A stretch of DNA of 64,000 nucleotides from Nitrososphaerota archaeon (GTDB lineage Archaea > Thermoproteota > Nitrososphaeria > Nitrososphaerales > Nitrosopumilaceae): NCBI GenBank assembly GCA_021325595.1, contig JAJPGX010000031.1, positions 1 to 64,000 on the forward strand, read 5' to 3'. The notes below the pieces were generated by a model. It worked only from the letters and a program-made list of their open reading frames with translations, did no database searches and was not told the DNA's origin. The position numbers were made by a program, and so were the translations under genes. This document shows, piece by piece, positions 6,119 through 15,076 of this stretch. Every line of letters starts with the position of its first letter. Within the stretch, counting starts at the first letter, position 1.

Positions 6119-6454
6119 TTAAATTGCATGAATTCCCTTTTGTCTGCTTCCTATATCCACTGCTGTATCTATAGTATCAACAAATATTTTTCCGTCTCCT
6201 ACCGAACCCGTACTTGCCGTATCAAGAATCGTACTTACAATTCTGTCTACCATTGAATCATCAACTACTGTAAGCAAATAGCTTTTTGTAGTAAAAGCAC
6301 CCTTGTCATCACTTTTGGTTGACTGGATAACATGGCTTGCTCTACCCCATCCTTTTGCATCAAAAACAGTAATGCCTCCAACTCCAATTTTTTTAAGAGC
6401 TTCAACAACTGCAGATAATTTTTCGGTAGATATTACAGCCTCCACTCTTTTCAT
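6119..6454 (-). CDS. PII-like signal protein with altered T-loop
   Basis: The 111-residue chain aligns over its length with GlnB/GlnK: the N-terminal strand MKRVEAVIS, the loop start KGWGRAS at residues 34-40, and the signature TGSVGDGKIFV at 82-92. PII proteins bind ATP/ADP and 2-oxoglutarate and report nitrogen and energy state to transporters and enzymes. Two canonical positions differ here: the residue matching Gln39 is Ala, and the T-loop has no Tyr at position 51 (Lys instead). Uridylylation at that site is therefore impossible, and 2-oxoglutarate binding may be changed. No ammonium transporter gene is adjacent. Confidence 0.9.
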   Translation of the reverse strand: MKRVEAVISTEKLSAVVEALKKIGVGGITVFDAKGWGRASHVIQSTKSDDKGAFTTKSYLLTVVDDSMVDRIVSTILDTASTGSVGDGKIFVDTIDTAVDIGSRQKGIHAI

Positions 6455-6507: not shown

Positions 6508-6525
6508 AATGCGGGAGGTGGGATT
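6508..6525. repeat. Left attachment repeat (displaced tRNA-Leu 3' end)
   Basis: This 18-bp copy, aatgcgggaggtgggatt, is identical to 11394-11411, which spans the 3' end of tRNA-Leu. No tRNA continues from it. Its last eight bases (gtgggatt) are also the first eight bases of the 103-bp inverted repeat, so the exact crossover point cannot be placed within those eight bases. Confidence 0.82.
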
Positions 6526-6620
6526 TGTGTTGATATATTCATTTGTGCGTTAACATTTGGTATCACGGTAGTTGGCGATAACAATACCAGTCCAATTATA
6601 ATTGCAGTCATGATAGTTGT
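6518..6620 (+). repeat. Left arm of a perfect 103-bp inverted repeat
   Basis: These 103 bases are the exact reverse complement of 8202-8304. On the minus strand they encode the same signal-peptide stretch as the exported protein gene (from TTIMTA through ISTQIP), but the copy stops at the attachment repeat and has no gene body after it. Similarity beyond the arm is weak. The arms are separated by 1,581 bases. Confidence 0.97.
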
Positions 6621-6861
6621 AGAGTTTTTGTCGTATTGTTCAACGTAGACCGGTGTGGCAGATTTACTATTTTGCTAGCTGTCAGTACCTTCACTTTTTC
6701 TAAAATCAAGATGTGTCGCTGAACTTTTCTAGTTTCCTCGCTTTACTTGGGTGCGGGTTCGATGGTTGCCCAGAACAGTTAGCGTATTTGAATTCTTTTT
6801 CCTGACAAAGTTAGATATCTATGCTATTGTATTGTAGAAGTTTGTTACATTATTTCCGCTT
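6621..6861. other. Stretch with no recognisable gene inside the element
   Basis: With the attachment repeat and inverted-repeat arm to its left, this stretch forms the 6455-6861 gap. I see no supported reading frame in it on either strand. On the minus strand a frame runs open into the inverted-repeat arm (before it, a segment reading TPVYVEQYDKNST) but has no start codon of its own before the internal ATG, so it looks like debris. Confidence 0.4.
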
Positions 6862-7134
6862 TTAAGATGACGATTTTACAGATTTAGCATTTTTCTTTCT
6901 ATCCCAAAGCAGAATTCCTATTCCAATTAGCATAATAATTATTCCCATAAATTCTAAAAAGAAGAAAGGAAGCTCTAAAATATGAAAAAGAGCATCGACA
7001 TTAGGAATGAAAAAAGTAAATCCACACCTATCAAAACCGCAATGTGGATTAAGAGCTATAGAAATTATAGTAACAAGTATGGAAAAACCTTCCAAAGAAA
7101 TCCCGATGATCAAAATTATGTAACCACGTTTCAT
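6862..7134 (-). CDS. Small two-span membrane protein
   Basis: The 90-residue product has two clear hydrophobic segments (residues about 5-27 and 53-76). They are separated by a loop with two cysteines in NPHCGFDRCGF and followed by a basic, serine-rich tail (DRKKNAKSVKSSS). The start is ATG at 7134. No family is recognised. It lies inside the integrated element and runs in the same direction as the integrase. The membrane topology is seen in the sequence; the role is unknown. Confidence 0.6.
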   Translation of the reverse strand: MKRGYIILIIGISLEGFSILVTIISIALNPHCGFDRCGFTFFIPNVDALFHILELPFFFLEFMGIIIMLIGIGILLWDRKKNAKSVKSSS

Positions 7135-7255
7135 CTTTGCTTACCTTATTATCTCCGGAACAATTATTTCAATTTGTTTTACATCTTTAGCATAAATTTG
7201 AGATATGGCTGGTGTAATAGATGTCAAAATAATTAAAAAAAGAGTTAAGGGGGGG

Positions 7256-7630
7256 TTAGGTGAATTTCCACGCCAGCCCTGAAATGTTACTCCTTACATT
7301 ACTTTCTTTTGAATAGTATGAATAACTATTCGCATCGTGACCAGACAGAAATCCAACTAGCGAGCTACCTGAGACTATAGCTGCTCCACTATCTCCACCT
7401 ACGACTACAATAGTGGCTTTTATCATATCATTCAGCGTAACGCCATCTGGATACGATATAGTTGTTGATGTGGCTAGTACTGTACCACTCTCAAGAGCAT
7501 TGGACCCTGCCCCTGAGTACGTGACTGTCATTCCAGAGTCTTTCTTCCTTGCCTCTCGTTTTGTCTTGTAAAACCTACGAAAGGTCTCTGCCTTGACAGT
7601 AATGGTACTGTATCCTTTTCTTGGAAATAG
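7256..7630 (-). pseudogene. Chimeric remnant: regulator N-terminus fused to serine-protease-like tail
   Basis: An open frame runs from 7630 to a stop at 7256. Its first part (PRKGYSTITVKAETFRRF) resembles the start of the intact small protein at 7867-8028 (MPRSGYRVMSIKEETYLKF), but the expected ATG is replaced by TTT and no other start is available. After about 31 codons the frame passes into a different sequence with VVVGGDSGAAIVSGSSLVGF, the nucleophile motif of chymotrypsin-like serine proteases. The catalytic His and Asp regions are absent. An internal ATG at 7531 could still give a 91-residue product. I read it as two gene fragments joined by deletion. Confidence 0.6.
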
Positions 7631-7646
7631 TTACATGTACAAATCG

Positions 7647-7796
7647 TTAGAATTTCACTCTATCGATTGCGTTGCTGTGTTGCACGATCTGAGCACGAGA
7701 TCTAATAATCTTGGTACGAGCATGGTTAATGTCTTGAAGTTCTGCTGTGGCGCAATCTTTTTTTGTTCCAGTACTTGATAAATCATTTGAATTCAT
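7647..7796 (-). CDS. Possible 49-residue protein of unknown role
   Basis: An ATG at 7796 opens a 49-codon frame ending at 7647, just upstream of the chimeric remnant and in the same direction. The product is hydrophilic and helical (DINHARTKIIRSRAQIVQHSNAIDRVKF) with no recognised motif. It fills an otherwise empty stretch, which is the main support. It could equally be chance. Confidence 0.3.
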   Translation of the reverse strand: MNSNDLSSTGTKKDCATAELQDINHARTKIIRSRAQIVQHSNAIDRVKF

Positions 7797-7866
7797 GAAA
7801 AACTCGTTACAATCTCAGATTATGCCATACTGTTGGATGAGAGAAATGAGGACAAGGGTGTGCAAT

Positions 7867-8028
7867 TTATTTTACTGATCTTGGTTTTTTGCGCACTTCC
7901 AAGAGAAGCTCAAGAAACCTGCTGTTGCTCATGTCTGGGAAGATCTTTCGTGCCTCTTCTGCGGCGCTGATGAACTTGAGGTAGGTCTCTTCCTTGATTG
8001 ACATGACGCGATATCCGCTTCTTGGCAT
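7867..8028 (-). CDS. Small ribbon-helix-helix-like protein
   Basis: This 53-residue frame starts with ATG at 8028 and ends with TAA at 7867. The N-terminal strand GYRVMSIKEETYLKF is followed by two helices (SAAEEARKIF, NSRFLELLLEVRKK). The strand-helix-helix order and basic ends fit a ribbon-helix-helix DNA-binding fold. The degenerate copy at 7534-7630 shares the PRxGY start, which supports the reading frame as real. It is divergent from the exported-protein gene at 8169, and both upstream regions carry AGTAC/GTACT half-sites. A regulator role within the element is an inference. Confidence 0.65.
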   Translation of the reverse strand: MPRSGYRVMSIKEETYLKFISAAEEARKIFPDMSNSRFLELLLEVRKKPRSVK

Positions 8029-8133
8029 CTTGTACTGATTATATATAGTACGACTGATAAATCATAGGTAGAAAATGATGGAGAAAATAAGATTTACTCA
8101 TCAATTATACGCAAATGGGAATCAAAATAATCC

Positions 8134-8140
8134 ATTTATA
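8134..8140 (+). promoter_or_regulatory. TATA box for the element's exported protein
   Basis: The sequence atttata is centred about 32 bases before the ATG at 8169, placing the transcript start a few bases before that codon. This favours 8169 over the in-frame ATG at 8145 as the true start, because the latter would lie upstream of the expected transcript. Confidence 0.5.
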
Positions 8141-8152
8141 GTACATGTACTA
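8139..8152. promoter_or_regulatory. 14-bp perfect palindrome, candidate operator
   Basis: The sequence tagtacatgtacta is a perfect palindrome. It overlaps the downstream edge of the TATA box of the exported-protein gene, where a bound regulator would block transcription start. Related half-sites (gtact at 8032-8036, agtac at 8047-8051) lie before the divergent small regulator-like gene. Confidence 0.4.
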
Positions 8153-8168
8153 TATCCCGTACAATAAC

Positions 8169-9329
8169 ATGAAAATACAGAACAACAAGACAAAAACAGC
8201 AACAACTATCATGACTGCAATTATAATTGGACTGGTATTGTTATCGCCAACTACCGTGATACCAAATGTTAACGCACAAATGAATATATCAACACAAATC
8301 CCACAATCCCCAGCAGATATTGAGAAGTTACTTCCAAAACCATTATCTAAAGGCCAAATAGAATCATTACAGAAGACAGCGCTGTCAAATGATTCAGTAC
8401 AAAACATTATTGCGGGAAAGCCGTATCGGTTTATGGCAGCAGACTATGTGGGCAATATAGTAACGGGCATTGCAAATCCAGAAGTTCATTTCAATATTAG
8501 CAACAAAACAGAAGTTACAGTTGTTGAAAATCTTGAAACTGGCACTATAACTGATATTAAAATTGGTTCGATACAAAAACTCGCTGGTCCAGTACCACCT
8601 GCAAATGGATCGAAACTTACAACAGGATCAGCAGCAAGAGCCGTAGACGATTATACTGGAACACATAATATAGATGGGCTGATAGGTCATCTTCCAACCA
8701 GTCTGCCAGGATTTTCTGCTTCAACTTTGCCACAAGTATCGTATTTGTTAAACGGCATAGAACTAAACGCAAACGACGATCCAGCCTACGCATGCAACTC
8801 GAATTACTATTATTACAACTACTTTGCCCAAGGAGGCGTGGACTGGGGAGCATCCAATCCTCACATAGTATATGCCGATACGCTCAGTAATTGTTATCCA
8901 GTACTACAATATAGTGTAGATTATAACCCAGGAAAAACTTACCTATTTGAAATCTGGGTTACTCGCGGTACATACAATTGGAATATCTATGGAGAAGACA
9001 TGAGCAATGGCAAATACTTTTGGTATCAGAATCCAAATGCAGTAGCTCAGAACACAATGAAGAAAAACGATGTTAATACATCAGTGTGGTTTGAAAATCA
9101 TGAAACTGGCACAAGTTGGTACAACGACTTTAGTCCTACAACCGTAAGTGCAAACACAATACAATTCCATGATTTTGGTGGAAACTATTGGCAAAAGTGG
9201 GATAATGATGCACAGTCAGTAATAGAATGCAGTGGATTGCCAGGATATCAAAACGTCATTACTGGGAATCTAATAAACGGCAACACCGCCAACTGGGACC
9301 TGATACAGATGGCGCAACATCACTGTTAG
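8169..9329 (+). CDS. Exported protein of the integrated element, unknown function
   Basis: I place the start at ATG 8169 (386 residues) rather than the in-frame ATG at 8145, from the TATA spacing. The N-terminus is a signal peptide: a basic region, then ATTIMTAIIIGLVLLSPTTV, with a likely cut after NVNA. The mature part has a propeptide-like helical region (residues about 30-160). A beta-rich domain follows with many Tyr and Trp residues and four cysteines, containing SVWFENHETGTSWYNDF near residue 310. That domain loosely recalls secreted lectin- or peptidase-like beta-sandwiches, but I cannot name a family. The 5' part is duplicated as the other arm of the 103-bp inverted repeat. A tail-anchored gene follows 48 bases later. 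Confidence 0.75.
   Translation: MKIQNNKTKTATTIMTAIIIGLVLLSPTTVIPNVNAQMNISTQIPQSPADIEKLLPKPLSKGQIESLQKTALSNDSVQNIIAGKPYRFMAADYVGNIVTGIANPEVHFNISNKTEVTVVENLETGTITDIKIGSIQKLAGPVPPANGSKLTTGSAARAVDDYTGTHNIDGLIGHLPTSLPGFSASTLPQVSYLLNGIELNANDDPAYACNSNYYYYNYFAQGGVDWGASNPHIVYADTLSNCYPVLQYSVDYNPGKTYLFEIWVTRGTYNWNIYGEDMSNGKYFWYQNPNAVAQNTMKKNDVNTSVWFENHETGTSWYNDFSPTTVSANTIQFHDFGGNYWQKWDNDAQSVIECSGLPGYQNVITGNLINGNTANWDLIQMAQHHC
8202..8304 (-). repeat. Right arm of the perfect 103-bp inverted repeat
   Basis: This arm lies within the 5' coding region of the exported protein and covers most of its signal peptide. It matches the reverse complement of 6518-6620 at every base. Recombination between the arms would invert 6621-8201 and detach the promoter and first 11 codons from the gene body. 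Confidence 0.97.
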
Positions 9330-9377
9330 TATAACTTTACTACATCTTTTTTATTATCTGCAAAGAGTATTGAGTAA

Positions 9378-10073
9378 ATGAGGGCATCTACAATGATAAT
9401 CATTTCAATTTGTGGAATAGTTTTAATCGGAGGTTCACTAGCATACATTTACAGTCCTCGACCAATAAGTACTCAGGAAAGATCATCTTACATACCTTAT
9501 ATGATGAAAGAGGACTTTGGGAAAAATGGATCAAGATTTGATTATGTACAAGTAGACTACACCAAGTACCTAGATCCTGTCAATTCAACCATAGGTGTAA
9601 CGGCCATGGGCCCTCACAAGTTCAATGATTGTAGCATTATATATCAAAGTAAAAGAAGTAACAAGATGTTATGGTATGATGAAAACATTACAAATCGTGG
9701 AGAAGGGTTCTCTGAAGATCCCACAATGGTACTGAACTCAACAAACAGGTTGATATTCGAGTGCACTAATCCCTCATATTCAATTGCATGGCCATACATG
9801 GAATTTGATGGAATCCCAAGTTCTGAAAATACTGTTTCTGTGAAAGGCAAACTTGAATCTCAGTCAAACATAACATTAACAATTTATTCTTGCGTGATAC
9901 TGAAATGTGAAACTGAAAATCGACATTTGATTGCTGAGAGTAACATGACAACCATGAAGGATGGAGGTTTTACATATTCATTTACAATTCCACAAACAAA
10001 TGATAATCTTCTTTATACTATTGTGCAATTAGGTACAAAAGAATACATGCTTGGATCTAGGATAGGGCAGTAG
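9378..10073 (+). CDS. Membrane-anchored extracellular protein of the element
   Basis: The 231-residue product has one N-terminal hydrophobic segment (residues about 5-24, MIIISICGIVLIGGSLAYIY), then a soluble domain with several NxT/S sites and paired cysteines (NDCSIIY, FECTNP, YSCVILKCE). The C-terminal half has an immunoglobulin-like alternation of strands (NTVSVKGKLESQSNITLTIY). It runs in the same direction as the exported protein 48 bases upstream, so the two may work together at the cell surface. No family is recognised. Confidence 0.7.
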   Translation: MRASTMIIISICGIVLIGGSLAYIYSPRPISTQERSSYIPYMMKEDFGKNGSRFDYVQVDYTKYLDPVNSTIGVTAMGPHKFNDCSIIYQSKRSNKMLWYDENITNRGEGFSEDPTMVLNSTNRLIFECTNPSYSIAWPYMEFDGIPSSENTVSVKGKLESQSNITLTIYSCVILKCETENRHLIAESNMTTMKDGGFTYSFTIPQTNDNLLYTIVQLGTKEYMLGSRIGQ

Positions 10074-10191
10074 ATCTGGCCAAAATGATGTGCCACTACA
10101 ACGATAAGCAATAATATCAATCAAGACCGAACCACGGCAGTAATGTGATAAAACAAAAAAGTGCATAATTACTAGATATGGAAATCTCTTG

Positions 10192-11313
10192 TCATCTTGA
10201 TATCTTTGCTATTCTTCTATTTGGACTGGAATGATCAAGGCTTTCTGCGATCATCTCCTTGAGATCCCCATAGCTTCGCTCTAGCCGCTCAAGCCTGTCC
10301 TGCAGTACTATGTTATAACGCTCAAGCTCACCCACTTTCTTGTCTGATACCGTAATCTGCTGTTCAAGCTTGTCTTTAAGCTCCGTTGCCTCAGATATTG
10401 TAAGGTATGGTACCGCCTTGAGGTACTCTTCAAGAAGGTACTGTTCATGAGGCCTGTAATAGTTTTCTGCATGGCCCATCAGTTTCTCAACATCAATTGT
10501 CTTCATGGCACGCTCAGCTGTAGTCTTGAAGAACTTGCGAAACCCGTGTATCTGCTTGAACTCGTAGTTTGTGCCAAGCCTTGACTCCCTCAGCTTCATC
10601 TTCTTGAGAAACTCGCCCATCTGGTTTGCAATAGATTTTGAAGTAAGTGGTATTGCAATACCTGGATCCTGCATTCTCTGCTTGCGGTACCTGTTGTTGT
10701 CCCATGTATCCCGTATAAGAGGCGATGATGGCGTTATCCTCTCGCCTGCAGACTCGCGAAGCTTCCTGTATTGTAACAACGCATTGTAGCATTCGGGTGT
10801 GACAAAAGTATAGTACTGCTCCCTATTGCCATGGTATGCGACAAGCTTTGCTGCAACAATCCTTCCTTTCTGGGTTATTGGAGCTATATTCCCCCAGACC
10901 AGCCCGTCAAACGCCCCCACCCTGATACCGGAACTGCAGCATAACAGTACGATACACTTTGTCCTGATATCTGCAAGCTCAAGTATGGTACGGATCTCTT
11001 CAATGGTAGGTGCTCTGTCGCTTCCAGTCTTTTTTGCGTGCGGTATTATCTTTGCAATCTTGGACCAGTTGATGCCATCCATATCATTCATCTCAAAGAA
11101 ATGCTTTAATGCATCACGGAACTGATGCAGCGTGGAACCGCTCACCTCTTTTCTTCTATTTTCGATATAATCGATGAACAGATCCTGGAATACTTTGGGG
11201 TTCTTTCTTGTCTTGCCTGCAAGTTCGTCTGGTTCCATCTTGCAAAAATCCAAAAACTGCGAGAGCTTTTTGCAGTATGACTCTCTGGTAGAATCACTGT
11301 GAAATCCCTTCAT
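10192..11313 (-). CDS. Tyrosine recombinase (integrase) of the tRNA-Leu element
   Basis: This 373-residue protein is a phage-type integrase that would insert and excise the element at the tRNA-Leu 3' end. An N-terminal SAM-like core-binding domain (residues 5-100) precedes the catalytic domain with the expected residues in order: Arg in SSGIRVGA (about 130), His-x-x-Arg in HGFRKFF (about 257), His in LMGHAENY (about 280), and Tyr in HEQYLLEEY (about 291). A C-terminal coiled coil (LKDKLEQQITVSDKKVGELERYN and onward, about 310-360) is extra. The gene is complete. It points away from the tRNA, and its start lies 83 bases from it. Confidence 0.93.
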   Translation of the reverse strand: MKGFHSDSTRESYCKKLSQFLDFCKMEPDELAGKTRKNPKVFQDLFIDYIENRRKEVSGSTLHQFRDALKHFFEMNDMDGINWSKIAKIIPHAKKTGSDRAPTIEEIRTILELADIRTKCIVLLCCSSGIRVGAFDGLVWGNIAPITQKGRIVAAKLVAYHGNREQYYTFVTPECYNALLQYRKLRESAGERITPSSPLIRDTWDNNRYRKQRMQDPGIAIPLTSKSIANQMGEFLKKMKLRESRLGTNYEFKQIHGFRKFFKTTAERAMKTIDVEKLMGHAENYYRPHEQYLLEEYLKAVPYLTISEATELKDKLEQQITVSDKKVGELERYNIVLQDRLERLERSYGDLKEMIAESLDHSSPNRRIAKISR

Positions 11314-11365
11314 GAAATTGTCAATTGACTTGCCTTGCAGGTTCAGTGGATACTATACGGAGGCC

Positions 11366-11374
11366 AAATATATA
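11366..11374 (-). promoter_or_regulatory. TATA box for the integrase
   Basis: On the minus strand the sequence tatatattt lies about 55 bases before the integrase ATG at 11313. This predicts a leader of roughly 30 bases. It sits between the attachment repeat and the gene, so the promoter travels with the element. Confidence 0.45.
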
Positions 11375-11393
11375 GACTTTCCACCCGAAATGT

Positions 11394-11411
11394 AATGCGG
11401 GAGGTGGGATT
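11394..11411. repeat. Right attachment repeat at the 3' end of tRNA-Leu
   Basis: This is the second copy of aatgcgggaggtgggatt. It includes the tRNA 3' acceptor strand and half of the T-arm on the minus strand. It is identical to 6508-6525 in the same orientation. Confidence 0.85.
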
Positions 11412-11480
11412 CGAACCCACGAACTCCTAAGAGATAAGGTTCTGAGCCTTACGCCGTTGACCAGGCTAGGCGACCCCCGC
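11397..11480 (-). tRNA. tRNA-Leu, anticodon CAG
   Basis: Read on the minus strand, the 84-base sequence folds as a class II tRNA. The acceptor stem GCGGGGG pairs with CTCCCGC (one G-T). The anticodon stem TAAGG/CCTTA encloses the loop CTCAGAA with anticodon CAG. A long variable arm is based on TCTCTTAGGAG, and the T-arm is GTGGG-TTCGAAT-CCCAC. No CCA is encoded and no intron is present. The 3' end is the integration site of the 4.9 kb element. Confidence 0.96.
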
Positions 11481-11536
11481 AACGTGAGAATTAAAACTCC
11501 ACAATAAGTGCTTTTTTATCATGAAATGAACAAACA

Positions 11537-12106
11537 CTAGTTCTTCAAACCGATGGTGTTTGTTTTGGAAATTTCATCTATAATAGAAATTGCTTTTTCT
11601 AATTTTTGTACTCTTTTTGCTCTATTATCCCTAAAACTTGTATTCCATGGCTGAGTATAGAGAATCACAGATTTTCCCACATTTAACATGCTATGTGCAT
11701 TTAATGGAGAGTCATCTATGAATATATCATAATCAAGTTTTGCTTTTTCTACACCTTCTATAACACCTACATAATTTCTAAAAATAACTCCATGAAGTTT
11801 TAACCAGTTTTTTACGTACTCGTGTGTTGATTCTTCCCTGGCAGTAACAATATCTACAGTTCCTAATTCAGAAAGTTTTCCAGTAGTTTCTGCTATGTTA
11901 TTTTCTGTTGGAGGAATATCCTTCCATGATTTCCAACATAAAGATAATTCATTGTAAAAATCAAATTTTTGAATATTATGCTTTTTCCAAAAATCCCATT
12001 CAGATATATCTGATTTGTGTATTGTCATTCGCACCTTATTATTATATAAAATCCATGAATGGATTACATCTGCAAGTACTCCATCTACATCAAGCGCTAT
12101 TTTCAT
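11537..12106 (-). CDS. HAD-family 5'-nucleotidase-like phosphatase
   Basis: The 189-residue product has the HAD motifs of the 5'(3')-deoxyribonucleotidase-like group. These are ALDVDGVLAD at residues 4-13 (nucleophile Asp and acid Asp), a threonine in VDIVTAREES near 95, and FIDDSPLNAH near 130 as the metal-binding motif. Length and motif spacing fit the small nucleotidase branch, which dephosphorylates nucleoside monophosphates. The natural substrate is not clear from sequence. It follows dnaJ by six bases, so it is likely the last gene of the grpE-dnaK-dnaJ transcript. Confidence 0.8.
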   Translation of the reverse strand: MKIALDVDGVLADVIHSWILYNNKVRMTIHKSDISEWDFWKKHNIQKFDFYNELSLCWKSWKDIPPTENNIAETTGKLSELGTVDIVTAREESTHEYVKNWLKLHGVIFRNYVGVIEGVEKAKLDYDIFIDDSPLNAHSMLNVGKSVILYTQPWNTSFRDNRAKRVQKLEKAISIIDEISKTNTIGLKN

Positions 12107-13249: not shown

Positions 13250-15076
13250 TCAGTTTGTCGTTTTATTTGTAGACTGGCCAGTTGGCTCTTCTTGTTTTTG
13301 TTGACCAGTATTTGGAGGAGGGGTAACATTTTTGTAAAGTTCCGTGCTGATATCATTAACTAGTTTCTTTAATGATTCCAATTTTGGTTTTATTTCAGTT
13401 GCGCCTTTCTCAAGAACGTCTTTTAGGTCTTTTATTGCATTTGTTACTTGAATTCCCTGTTCTTGAGATATCTTATCTTTTAAATCTTGGTTAATCAATT
13501 TCTCTGTTGTGTAGATATAGCTTTCTGCTTCATTTTTAATTTCGACTTCCTCTTTTTTCTTTTTGTCTTGTTCGGAATACACCTCAGCATCTTTCTTCAT
13601 TTTTTCTATATCATCTTTAGAAAGTTTGGTACTTGCGCTAATTGTAATTTTAGCTTCTTTTTGTGTTGCCATATCCTTTGCTGTTACATTTAGTATTCCA
13701 TTTGCATCAATATCGAATTTAACCTCAATTTGTGGAACGCCTCGTGGTGCGGGTGGAATTCCAGATAGGTTAAAAGAACCTAGAGATACATTGTCTGCGG
13801 CCATAGGGCGTTCACCCTGTACAATATGAATAGTAACTGCAGTCTGATTATCTGCAGCTGTTGTGAAGGTTTTACTTTTAGATGTTGGTATTGTTGTATT
13901 TCTGTCTATGATAGGTTCACGTAATCCACCAAGCACCTCAACACCTAATGTGAGTGGAGTCACGTCAAGTAAAACTATATCACTGGTAACTTCACCTGCA
14001 ATAATCCCTGCTTGAATAGCTGCTCCCAATGCGACAGCTTCCATAGGATCAACGCCTGCCTCAGGTTCTTTTCCCATTACGGTTGCAACAAATTTTCTTA
14101 CCAGAGGTATCCTTGTTGGACCGCCAACCAATATAACCTTACTTACATCAGAAGGAGATAATTTGGCATCTTCTAATGCCTTTAACATAGAGGGCTTACA
14201 TCTTTCGATTATAGGATTAATGAGTTCTTCAAACTTTGATCTTGTTATTTTTAATTCTAAATTTTTAGGACCTGAGGAAGGATCATACGCTATAAATGGC
14301 AGGTTTACATCAGTTTCAAAAACGGAAGATAGCTCTATCTTTGCTTTTTCGGCAGCTTCTCGTACTCTTACCATTGCAGCATTGTCTTTTGAAATATCTA
14401 TGCCAGATATTTTTCTAAAAGAATCTATGATAAAGTCAATAAGCACTTTGTCCATATCGGTTCCTCCCAATTGTGTATCACCTGATGTGCTCATTACCTC
14501 AAATACACCTCCTCCCATTTCCATAATAGTAACATCTAGTGTTCCACCACCAAAATCAAATACCATAATTTTCATGTCTTGTTTTGCCTTGTCAAGACCA
14601 AATGCAAGTGCAGCAGCAGTAGGTTCATTAATTATTCGTACAACCTCAAGACCAGCTATCTGGCCAGCATCTTTGGTTGCTTGTCGTTGGTTATCATTAA
14701 AGTAAGCAGGGACCGTAATTACTGCTTTTTCTACTGTTTCTCCCACAAATGCCTCTGCATCCCGTTTTATTTTTTGGAGAATAAAGGCCGAGATTTGTTG
14801 TGGCTTGTATTCTTTGCCATACATTTTAAAAGTATAATCAGTTCCCATCTTTCTTTTTGCAGCTACCACAGTACCTTCTGGATTAGTTACTGCTTGCCTT
14901 CTGGCAGGTTCACCAACTAAGAGTTGATTGTCTTTTGTCATAGCAACAACTGATGGGAATGCCTTTCCACCTACAGTTGTTCCTTCTGCAGCCGGGATTA
15001 ATGTTGGTTTTCCTCCCATCATAACCGCAGCGGCAGAGTTACTTGTTCCTAAATCTATTCCAATAATTTTAGCCAT
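13250..15076 (-). CDS. dnaK: Chaperone DnaK (Hsp70)
   Basis: This 608-residue Hsp70 binds exposed hydrophobic peptides under ATP control. The N-terminus has [15 protein letters not shown] (phosphate loop 1). [16 protein letters not shown] and [14 protein letters not shown] mark the rest of the ATPase domain. The substrate-binding domain begins near residue 375 ([13 protein letters not shown]), followed by a helical lid and a Gln/Thr/Asn-rich C-terminal tail. The start overlaps the end of grpE by eight bases, so translation is coupled. The set runs grpE, dnaK, dnaJ. Confidence 0.98.

Follow-up and report, generated by a model that had tools for sequence, protein, structure and literature searches.

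A probably rearranged tRNA-Leu-integrated element with exported cargo in a Nitrosotalea genome

Cryptic integrated elements (CIEs) of thaumarchaea span 2.6-98 kb with a median attachment (att) repeat of 17 bp, and many of them, including some as small as 2.6 kb, lack a replication gene; more than half of all mapped thaumarchaeal elements sit in tRNA genes (Krupovic et al. 2019, PMC6563490). Here we analysed a stretch of 64,000 nucleotides (the window; GenBank assembly GCA_021325595.1, contig JAJPGX010000031.1, positions 1 to 64,000) from a Nitrososphaerota archaeon, in which 4.9 kb inserted at a tRNA-Leu gene is here called element W. The host belongs to the ammonia-oxidising genus Nitrosotalea, Candidatus N. 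devanaterra (LN890280.1, genome G035) being a congener. W is a so far undescribed member of the thaumarchaeal CIEs, having an integrase adjoining the att site, direct repeats derived from the target, and an empty site in relatives. The reading that we favor, with a probability of roughly 0.7, is that W is a CIE of a tRNA-Leu-directed family present in Nitrosotalea and other Nitrososphaeria, derived by rearrangement from a larger element, carrying regulated exported cargo, and probably excising weakly or not at all.

W shares with the described CIEs (PMC6563490) the integrase, the insertion at a tRNA 3' end, the short att (18 bp versus the median of 17), the small size, a mostly unknown cargo with ribbon-helix-helix (RHH) proteins, and, as in many members, the lack of a recognised replication gene. 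It differs from the elements in the main text of that paper in being a rearranged relative of elements with TIR-APAZ and short prokaryotic Argonaute (pAgo) genes, and in its putatively RHH-controlled, exported glutamic-peptidase-like cargo. Argonaute, secreted proteins and tRNA-Leu go unmentioned in that main text, and one of the relatives treated below, element G, may stand in its supplementary tables. Scans with Pfam, PHROGs and NCBIfam matched no virion, conjugation or casposase gene in W and found no replication gene, in agreement with a first-pass annotation made from the sequence alone. The integrase had no close relative in phage and plasmid collections, the best IMG/VR viral-contig match being 26%.

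Insertion site and integrase

The direct repeat AATGCGGGAGGTGGGATT brackets W in two exact copies (Table 1), as the first-pass annotation had noted. The 15-mer GCGGGAGGTGGGATT occurred exactly five times in the whole 1.64-Mb genome, always at tRNA-Leu att sites of W and a second element, S (C37:2-16 and C3:92-106 are one site counted twice through contig overlap), and this confinement ruled out a chance origin of the repeat. The same scan found a single copy with one mismatch, on contig C38 close to a tRNA-Thr gene.

Eighteen congeneric loci without the insertion had the order gatE, an optional PII gene, tRNA-Leu(CAG) and then the conserved HAD-like gene (the contig of L033 stops short of gatE). 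Three of them (L025, L031 and L035) also have PII and align across the joined flanks of W with one copy of the word, which is the empty tRNA-Leu-PII junction that had been proposed as a check in related genomes. Joining the flanks left 53 bp between the tRNA and PII, close to the approximately 55 bases predicted, and the gap is about 60 bp in the three PII-bearing relatives. The tRNA base R57 was also informative: 17 of the 18 empty CAG tRNAs read TTCAAATCCC (A at R57), the tRNA occupied by W reads TTCGAATCCC (G57), and the base preceding the distal att copy is A, unlike the G57 of the occupied tRNA. G57 in the tRNA and A57 at the distal copy are as expected from a crossover 5' of AATCCC and give base-level support for integration. 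Site-specific integration of W into the 3' end of tRNA-Leu(CAG) by its own tyrosine recombinase is supported, and this part of the earlier element reading, which placed it in an archaeon of ammonia-oxidising type, stands on the empty sites and junctions. In this view, the core of a circular form would have recombined with the 3' end of the tRNA at that crossover position. A chimeric join produced by assembly or binning might be suspected in a draft genome of 50 contigs that breaks at repeats. Such an artefact is extremely improbable, as W lies within one 66-kb contig, both flanks follow the conserved gene order of the congeners, and the R57 base differs between the att copies as integration predicts.

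The integrase was found to be complete and directly inside the intact tRNA end, as first annotated. It matched Phage_int_SAM_4 above the Pfam cut-off and Phage_integrase below the cut-off, and the residues R131, H256-GF-R259, H281 and Y285/Y286 (RHRY) were read off the alignment; a PDB sequence search returned nothing useful, with no solved relative by sequence. Like the classical archaeal tyrosine recombinases (reviewed in PMC8371274), the gene stays whole after integration rather than being split by att and encodes the R...HxxR...H...Y pattern, with an HGFR motif as against YxxR in the pNOB8-type and KxxR in the SSV-type enzymes. This subfamily is distinct among archaeal integrases, and most of its insertions are at class II tRNAs: close relatives from Nitrosopumilus and further lineages adjoin tRNA-Leu (CAG or TAG), and two adjoin tRNA-Ser. 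Its distribution is patchy, close copies within Nitrosotalea occurring only in W's own genome and G035. Pairwise ratios of nonsynonymous to synonymous substitutions (dN/dS) of 0.06-0.08 indicated purifying selection on the integrase, and the RHH gene of the cargo is likewise under purifying selection.

These results bear on the alternative that W is a static islet, namely an old integration with domesticated genes and an integrase left as a passive remnant. The gene remnants and inverted blocks described below would agree with it, as would an assembly giving no sign of W excision. It is nevertheless distinctly unlikely, considering the selection acting on the integrase and RHH genes, the exact 18-bp repeats that were retained, and the absence of W at this site from all congeners examined.

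Table 1. Features of element W and its chromosomal flanks in the window
Feature	Coordinates	Strand	Remarks
PII gene	6119-6454	-	Chromosomal flank outside W
Distal att core	6508-6525	-	Identical copy; adjoining base 6526 is T (= A57), like empty congeneric tRNAs
Truncated signal-peptide fragment	6518-6641	-	Codons about 5-46; 96% inverted copy of 8180-8304 (124 bp)
Small hydrophobic (membrane) protein	6862-7134	-	90 aa
Open reading frame (ORF) fragment	7256-7531	-	GGDSGAA motif; joined to RHH remnant; no family match
Third RHH gene remnant	7529-7663	-	Counterpart G 13966-14100
Second RHH gene remnant	7714-7804	-	Counterpart G 14431-14520
Intact RHH-like regulator	7867-8028	-	53 aa; 96% identical to G copy; sequence pattern, no Pfam match
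Perfect palindrome TATAGTACATGTACTATA	8137-8154		18 bp; proposed RHH operator
Exported protein	8169-9329	+	386 aa from conserved start; signal peptide, N-terminal prodomain, beta-sandwich, predicted glutamic-peptidase-like fold
Single-pass membrane or exported protein	9378-10073	+	231 aa; no family match; topology read from sequence
Tyrosine recombinase	10192-11313	-	Classical, unsplit; 373 aa; no internal stop; directly inside intact tRNA end
Proximal att core	11394-11411	-	tRNA 3' end; AATCCCACCTCCCGCATT read along tRNA strand
tRNA-Leu(CAG)	11395-11481	-	Integration target; G at R57 (TTCGAAT)
Conserved flanking gene (here called HAD-like)	11537-12106	-	Other side of W; beside tRNA-Leu in congeners

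Larger relatives and the proposed rearrangement of W

Two related elements occupy tRNA-Leu(TAG) genes, for which empty sites were seen at more than 20 congeneric loci. Element S, located in the same genome as W on contig C3, spans 11.9 kb between 18-bp repeats identical to those of W. Element G of N. devanaterra is 15.1 kb long and flanked by a 17-bp repeat. Over approximately 9 kb, the DNA of S and G is about 85% identical, and both carry a TIR-APAZ-like gene beside a short pAgo gene (strong PADLOC matches, SPARTA-like), together with an AAA ATPase, an AbrB/MazE-like gene, RHH genes, and exported proteins at the end adjoining the distal att. The SPARTA-like pair, a predicted anti-invader defence system, is absent from W. 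Both S and G are larger relatives of W and use the att word found there. The TIR-APAZ-like and pAgo genes lie at 4698-7660 in L009 (genome G000, C3) and 6034-8993 in L090, with approximately 95% identity by tblastx. The short exported proteins beside the distal att (L009 295-936, L090 16090-16725) have a common C-terminal WING-49 domain, which was an NCBIfam match for the L009 protein and a likeness judged by eye for L090.

Comparison with S and G revealed what W has retained. The integrase (84% identical to that of S) and the exported-gene end are kept, and the middle block with the defence and ATPase genes is absent. The order RHH1-RHH2-RHH3-exported of G is preserved with one RHH gene intact and two as remnants, but, with respect to the integrase, this block runs in the opposite orientation. 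Next to the distal att, 37 bp are identical between S and G and include a 16-bp palindrome ACTCTGCATGCAGAGT adjoining the core. This palindrome is lost from the distal end of W, where a signal-peptide fragment is joined to the att core through AAATCCCAC, a word present in leader and att alike. The fragment belongs to a 96% inverted repeat (6518-6629 and 8193-8304) overlooked in the first-pass annotation. The absent middle, the inverted cargo, the RHH remnants in N. devanaterra order and the replaced distal arm make W better explained as a deleted, rearranged derivative than as the minimal or dependent element proposed at first. An invertible promoter switch between the inverted repeats was considered and rejected, since the left copy has neither a start codon nor a gene body and is non-functional as such.

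On this evidence, an ancestor resembling S and G would have shed the defence and ATPase block, and the regulator and exported-gene block would have become inverted. The simplest reading of the distal end is a deletion, by the integrase or by microhomology repair, between the pseudo-core AAATCCCAC in the signal peptide of a second exported gene and the distal att, which would have taken away the palindromic arm kept in S and G. Synonymous divergence between W and G was 1.37 for the integrase versus 0.64 for the RHH gene, indicating a different history for the cargo module. In another Nitrosotalea genome, ACTCTGCATGCAGAGT was found with the partial core GGATTTTT away from detected tRNAs (L198, G006 C1:1758681-1758696), possibly as a relic att.

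W probably excises weakly today, if at all, and its mobility appears doubtful. W is located inside contig C20 with no assembly break, unlike S. At two independent places, contigs of the assembly have overlaps of exactly 107 bp, a value that looks like the word length of the assembler. The first 107 bases of C3 are common to C37 (L009 1-107, L039 1-107), this overlap ending one base within the distal att; the final 107 bases of C3 begin immediately past position 12066 (L009 12067-12173). The ends of C3 are the branch points expected for a path TTC-A-AATCCC...-flank (A at tRNA base R57), so that an empty tRNA-Leu(TAG) may coexist with S in the sample; a contig bearing the other flank of this tRNA was not found in the bin. 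The contig ends thus suggest, indirectly, present mobility of S. Another contig of the genome, C16 (7.2 kb), is an element-like insertion overlapping C15 by 107 bp (L166, L167); it holds a short integrase-like ORF, an ATPase/helicase-like ORF and exported proteins, and no tRNA was found in it.

W could instead be a living minimal or satellite element that relies on S or another helper for replication and transfer, its cargo giving the host an exported enzyme. The presence in one genome of S, with the same core and a related integrase, is consistent with this, as are the conserved integrase of W, the lack of a detected replication gene, and the precedent of the 2.6-kb cryptic elements. We consider it rather unlikely: the distal arm common to S and G is missing from W, three remnants lie within just 4.9 kb, C20 passes through W unbroken, unlike the case of S, and S too has no recognised packaging or transfer gene.

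Exported cargo and its putative regulator

The first of the exported genes noted earlier is indeed present, but its start at 8145 falls within the 18-bp palindrome at 8137-8154; the start that is conserved lies at 8169 (MKIQNN...). The protein had no Pfam family match, and a PDB sequence search gave nothing useful; its counterpart in G was assigned to Pfam Peptidase_A4 (3e-15). Q229, E317 and three cysteines (numbering from 8145) are invariant across the protein and eleven homologues. A structure model based on a 12-sequence alignment reached a mean pLDDT of 78, superseding a poor model from nine sequences (pLDDT 48), and Foldseek matched it to neprosin (7zva), the eqolisin SCP-B (1s2b) and HC7, which acts on glycopeptides. 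The protein resembles the glutamic peptidases (eqolisin/G1 SCP-B and neprosin) in having a predicted beta-sandwich fold, a prodomain at the N terminus and an export signal, and its invariant Gln and Glu are candidates for the catalytic pair; its sequence identity to eqolisin and neprosin is very low, approximately 10%. Judged by eye, the ORF fragment at 7256-7531 may represent the C terminus of an exported serine protease-like protein.

The palindrome TATAGTACATGTACTATA lies between the divergent RHH and exported genes, and its exact matches within the genus were found only in W and G. By analogy with known RHH regulators, the RHH protein and the palindrome likely constitute an autoregulatory switch over the exported gene, in which the protein would bind the palindrome and control export of the glutamic-peptidase-like protein as an autoregulated unit.

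Several points weigh against the favored account of W as a rearranged, probably poorly excising CIE with regulated peptidase-like cargo. With an intact integrase ORF and both 18-bp cores undamaged, W may remain capable of excision should the palindromic arm not be required. The inversion and deletion were reconstructed from three elements only. The RHH assignment is based on a sequence pattern, and the Foldseek E-values were modest (3e-4 to 1e-3), with TM scores of 0.33-0.39 for neprosin and, for SCP-B (1s2b), of 0.61 at most when taken by target length.

Possible leader exchange among exported genes

A search for the leader across 37 Nitrosotalea genomes located it at 31 places, distributed over 15 of them. 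The family comprises L123-L152 and 8029-8280 of the window, with conserved promoters and signal peptides. When 28 leader-bearing genes were compared, the mature parts grouped into 12 clusters that lacked detectable similarity to one another, and several genes from different clusters were 80-90% identical over the upstream 100-130 bp (such as L133, L137, L142, L149 and L150; L125/L127; L145/L151; L148/L152; L123/L143). In L125 and L137, 1.37 kb of upstream DNA is 86% identical and the mature parts are unrelated. The converse, homologous mature parts behind dissimilar leaders, was seen for S 982-1956 versus L099 and for G 14867 versus L102. In a profile comparison of two exported families, the leader and prodomain aligned and the mature domains did not. 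An RHH-like gene is located divergently upstream in 14 of 30 loci.

These comparisons suggest that secreted gene bodies have been exchanged under conserved regulators and leaders. More tentatively, the exported genes of Nitrosotalea, several of them on mobile elements, might form an exchange platform in which regulator, promoter and signal peptide are kept and the mature protein is swapped by leader recombination; W would then record one such event, between the att-like core of a leader and its own att. Within the literature searched, we found no papers on glutamic peptidases of Nitrosotalea or on signal-peptide exchange in these archaea.

To our knowledge, mobile DNA and secreted proteins of acid-soil nitrifiers have been little studied. 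The present analysis links a small island, unexplained until now, with a tRNA-Leu element family able to carry short-Argonaute defence in ammonia-oxidising archaea, and provides a base-level view of how such an element integrates and how one may become trapped. It also suggests that the cargo in these nitrifiers can include secreted glutamic-type peptidases, possibly exchanged via common signal peptides.

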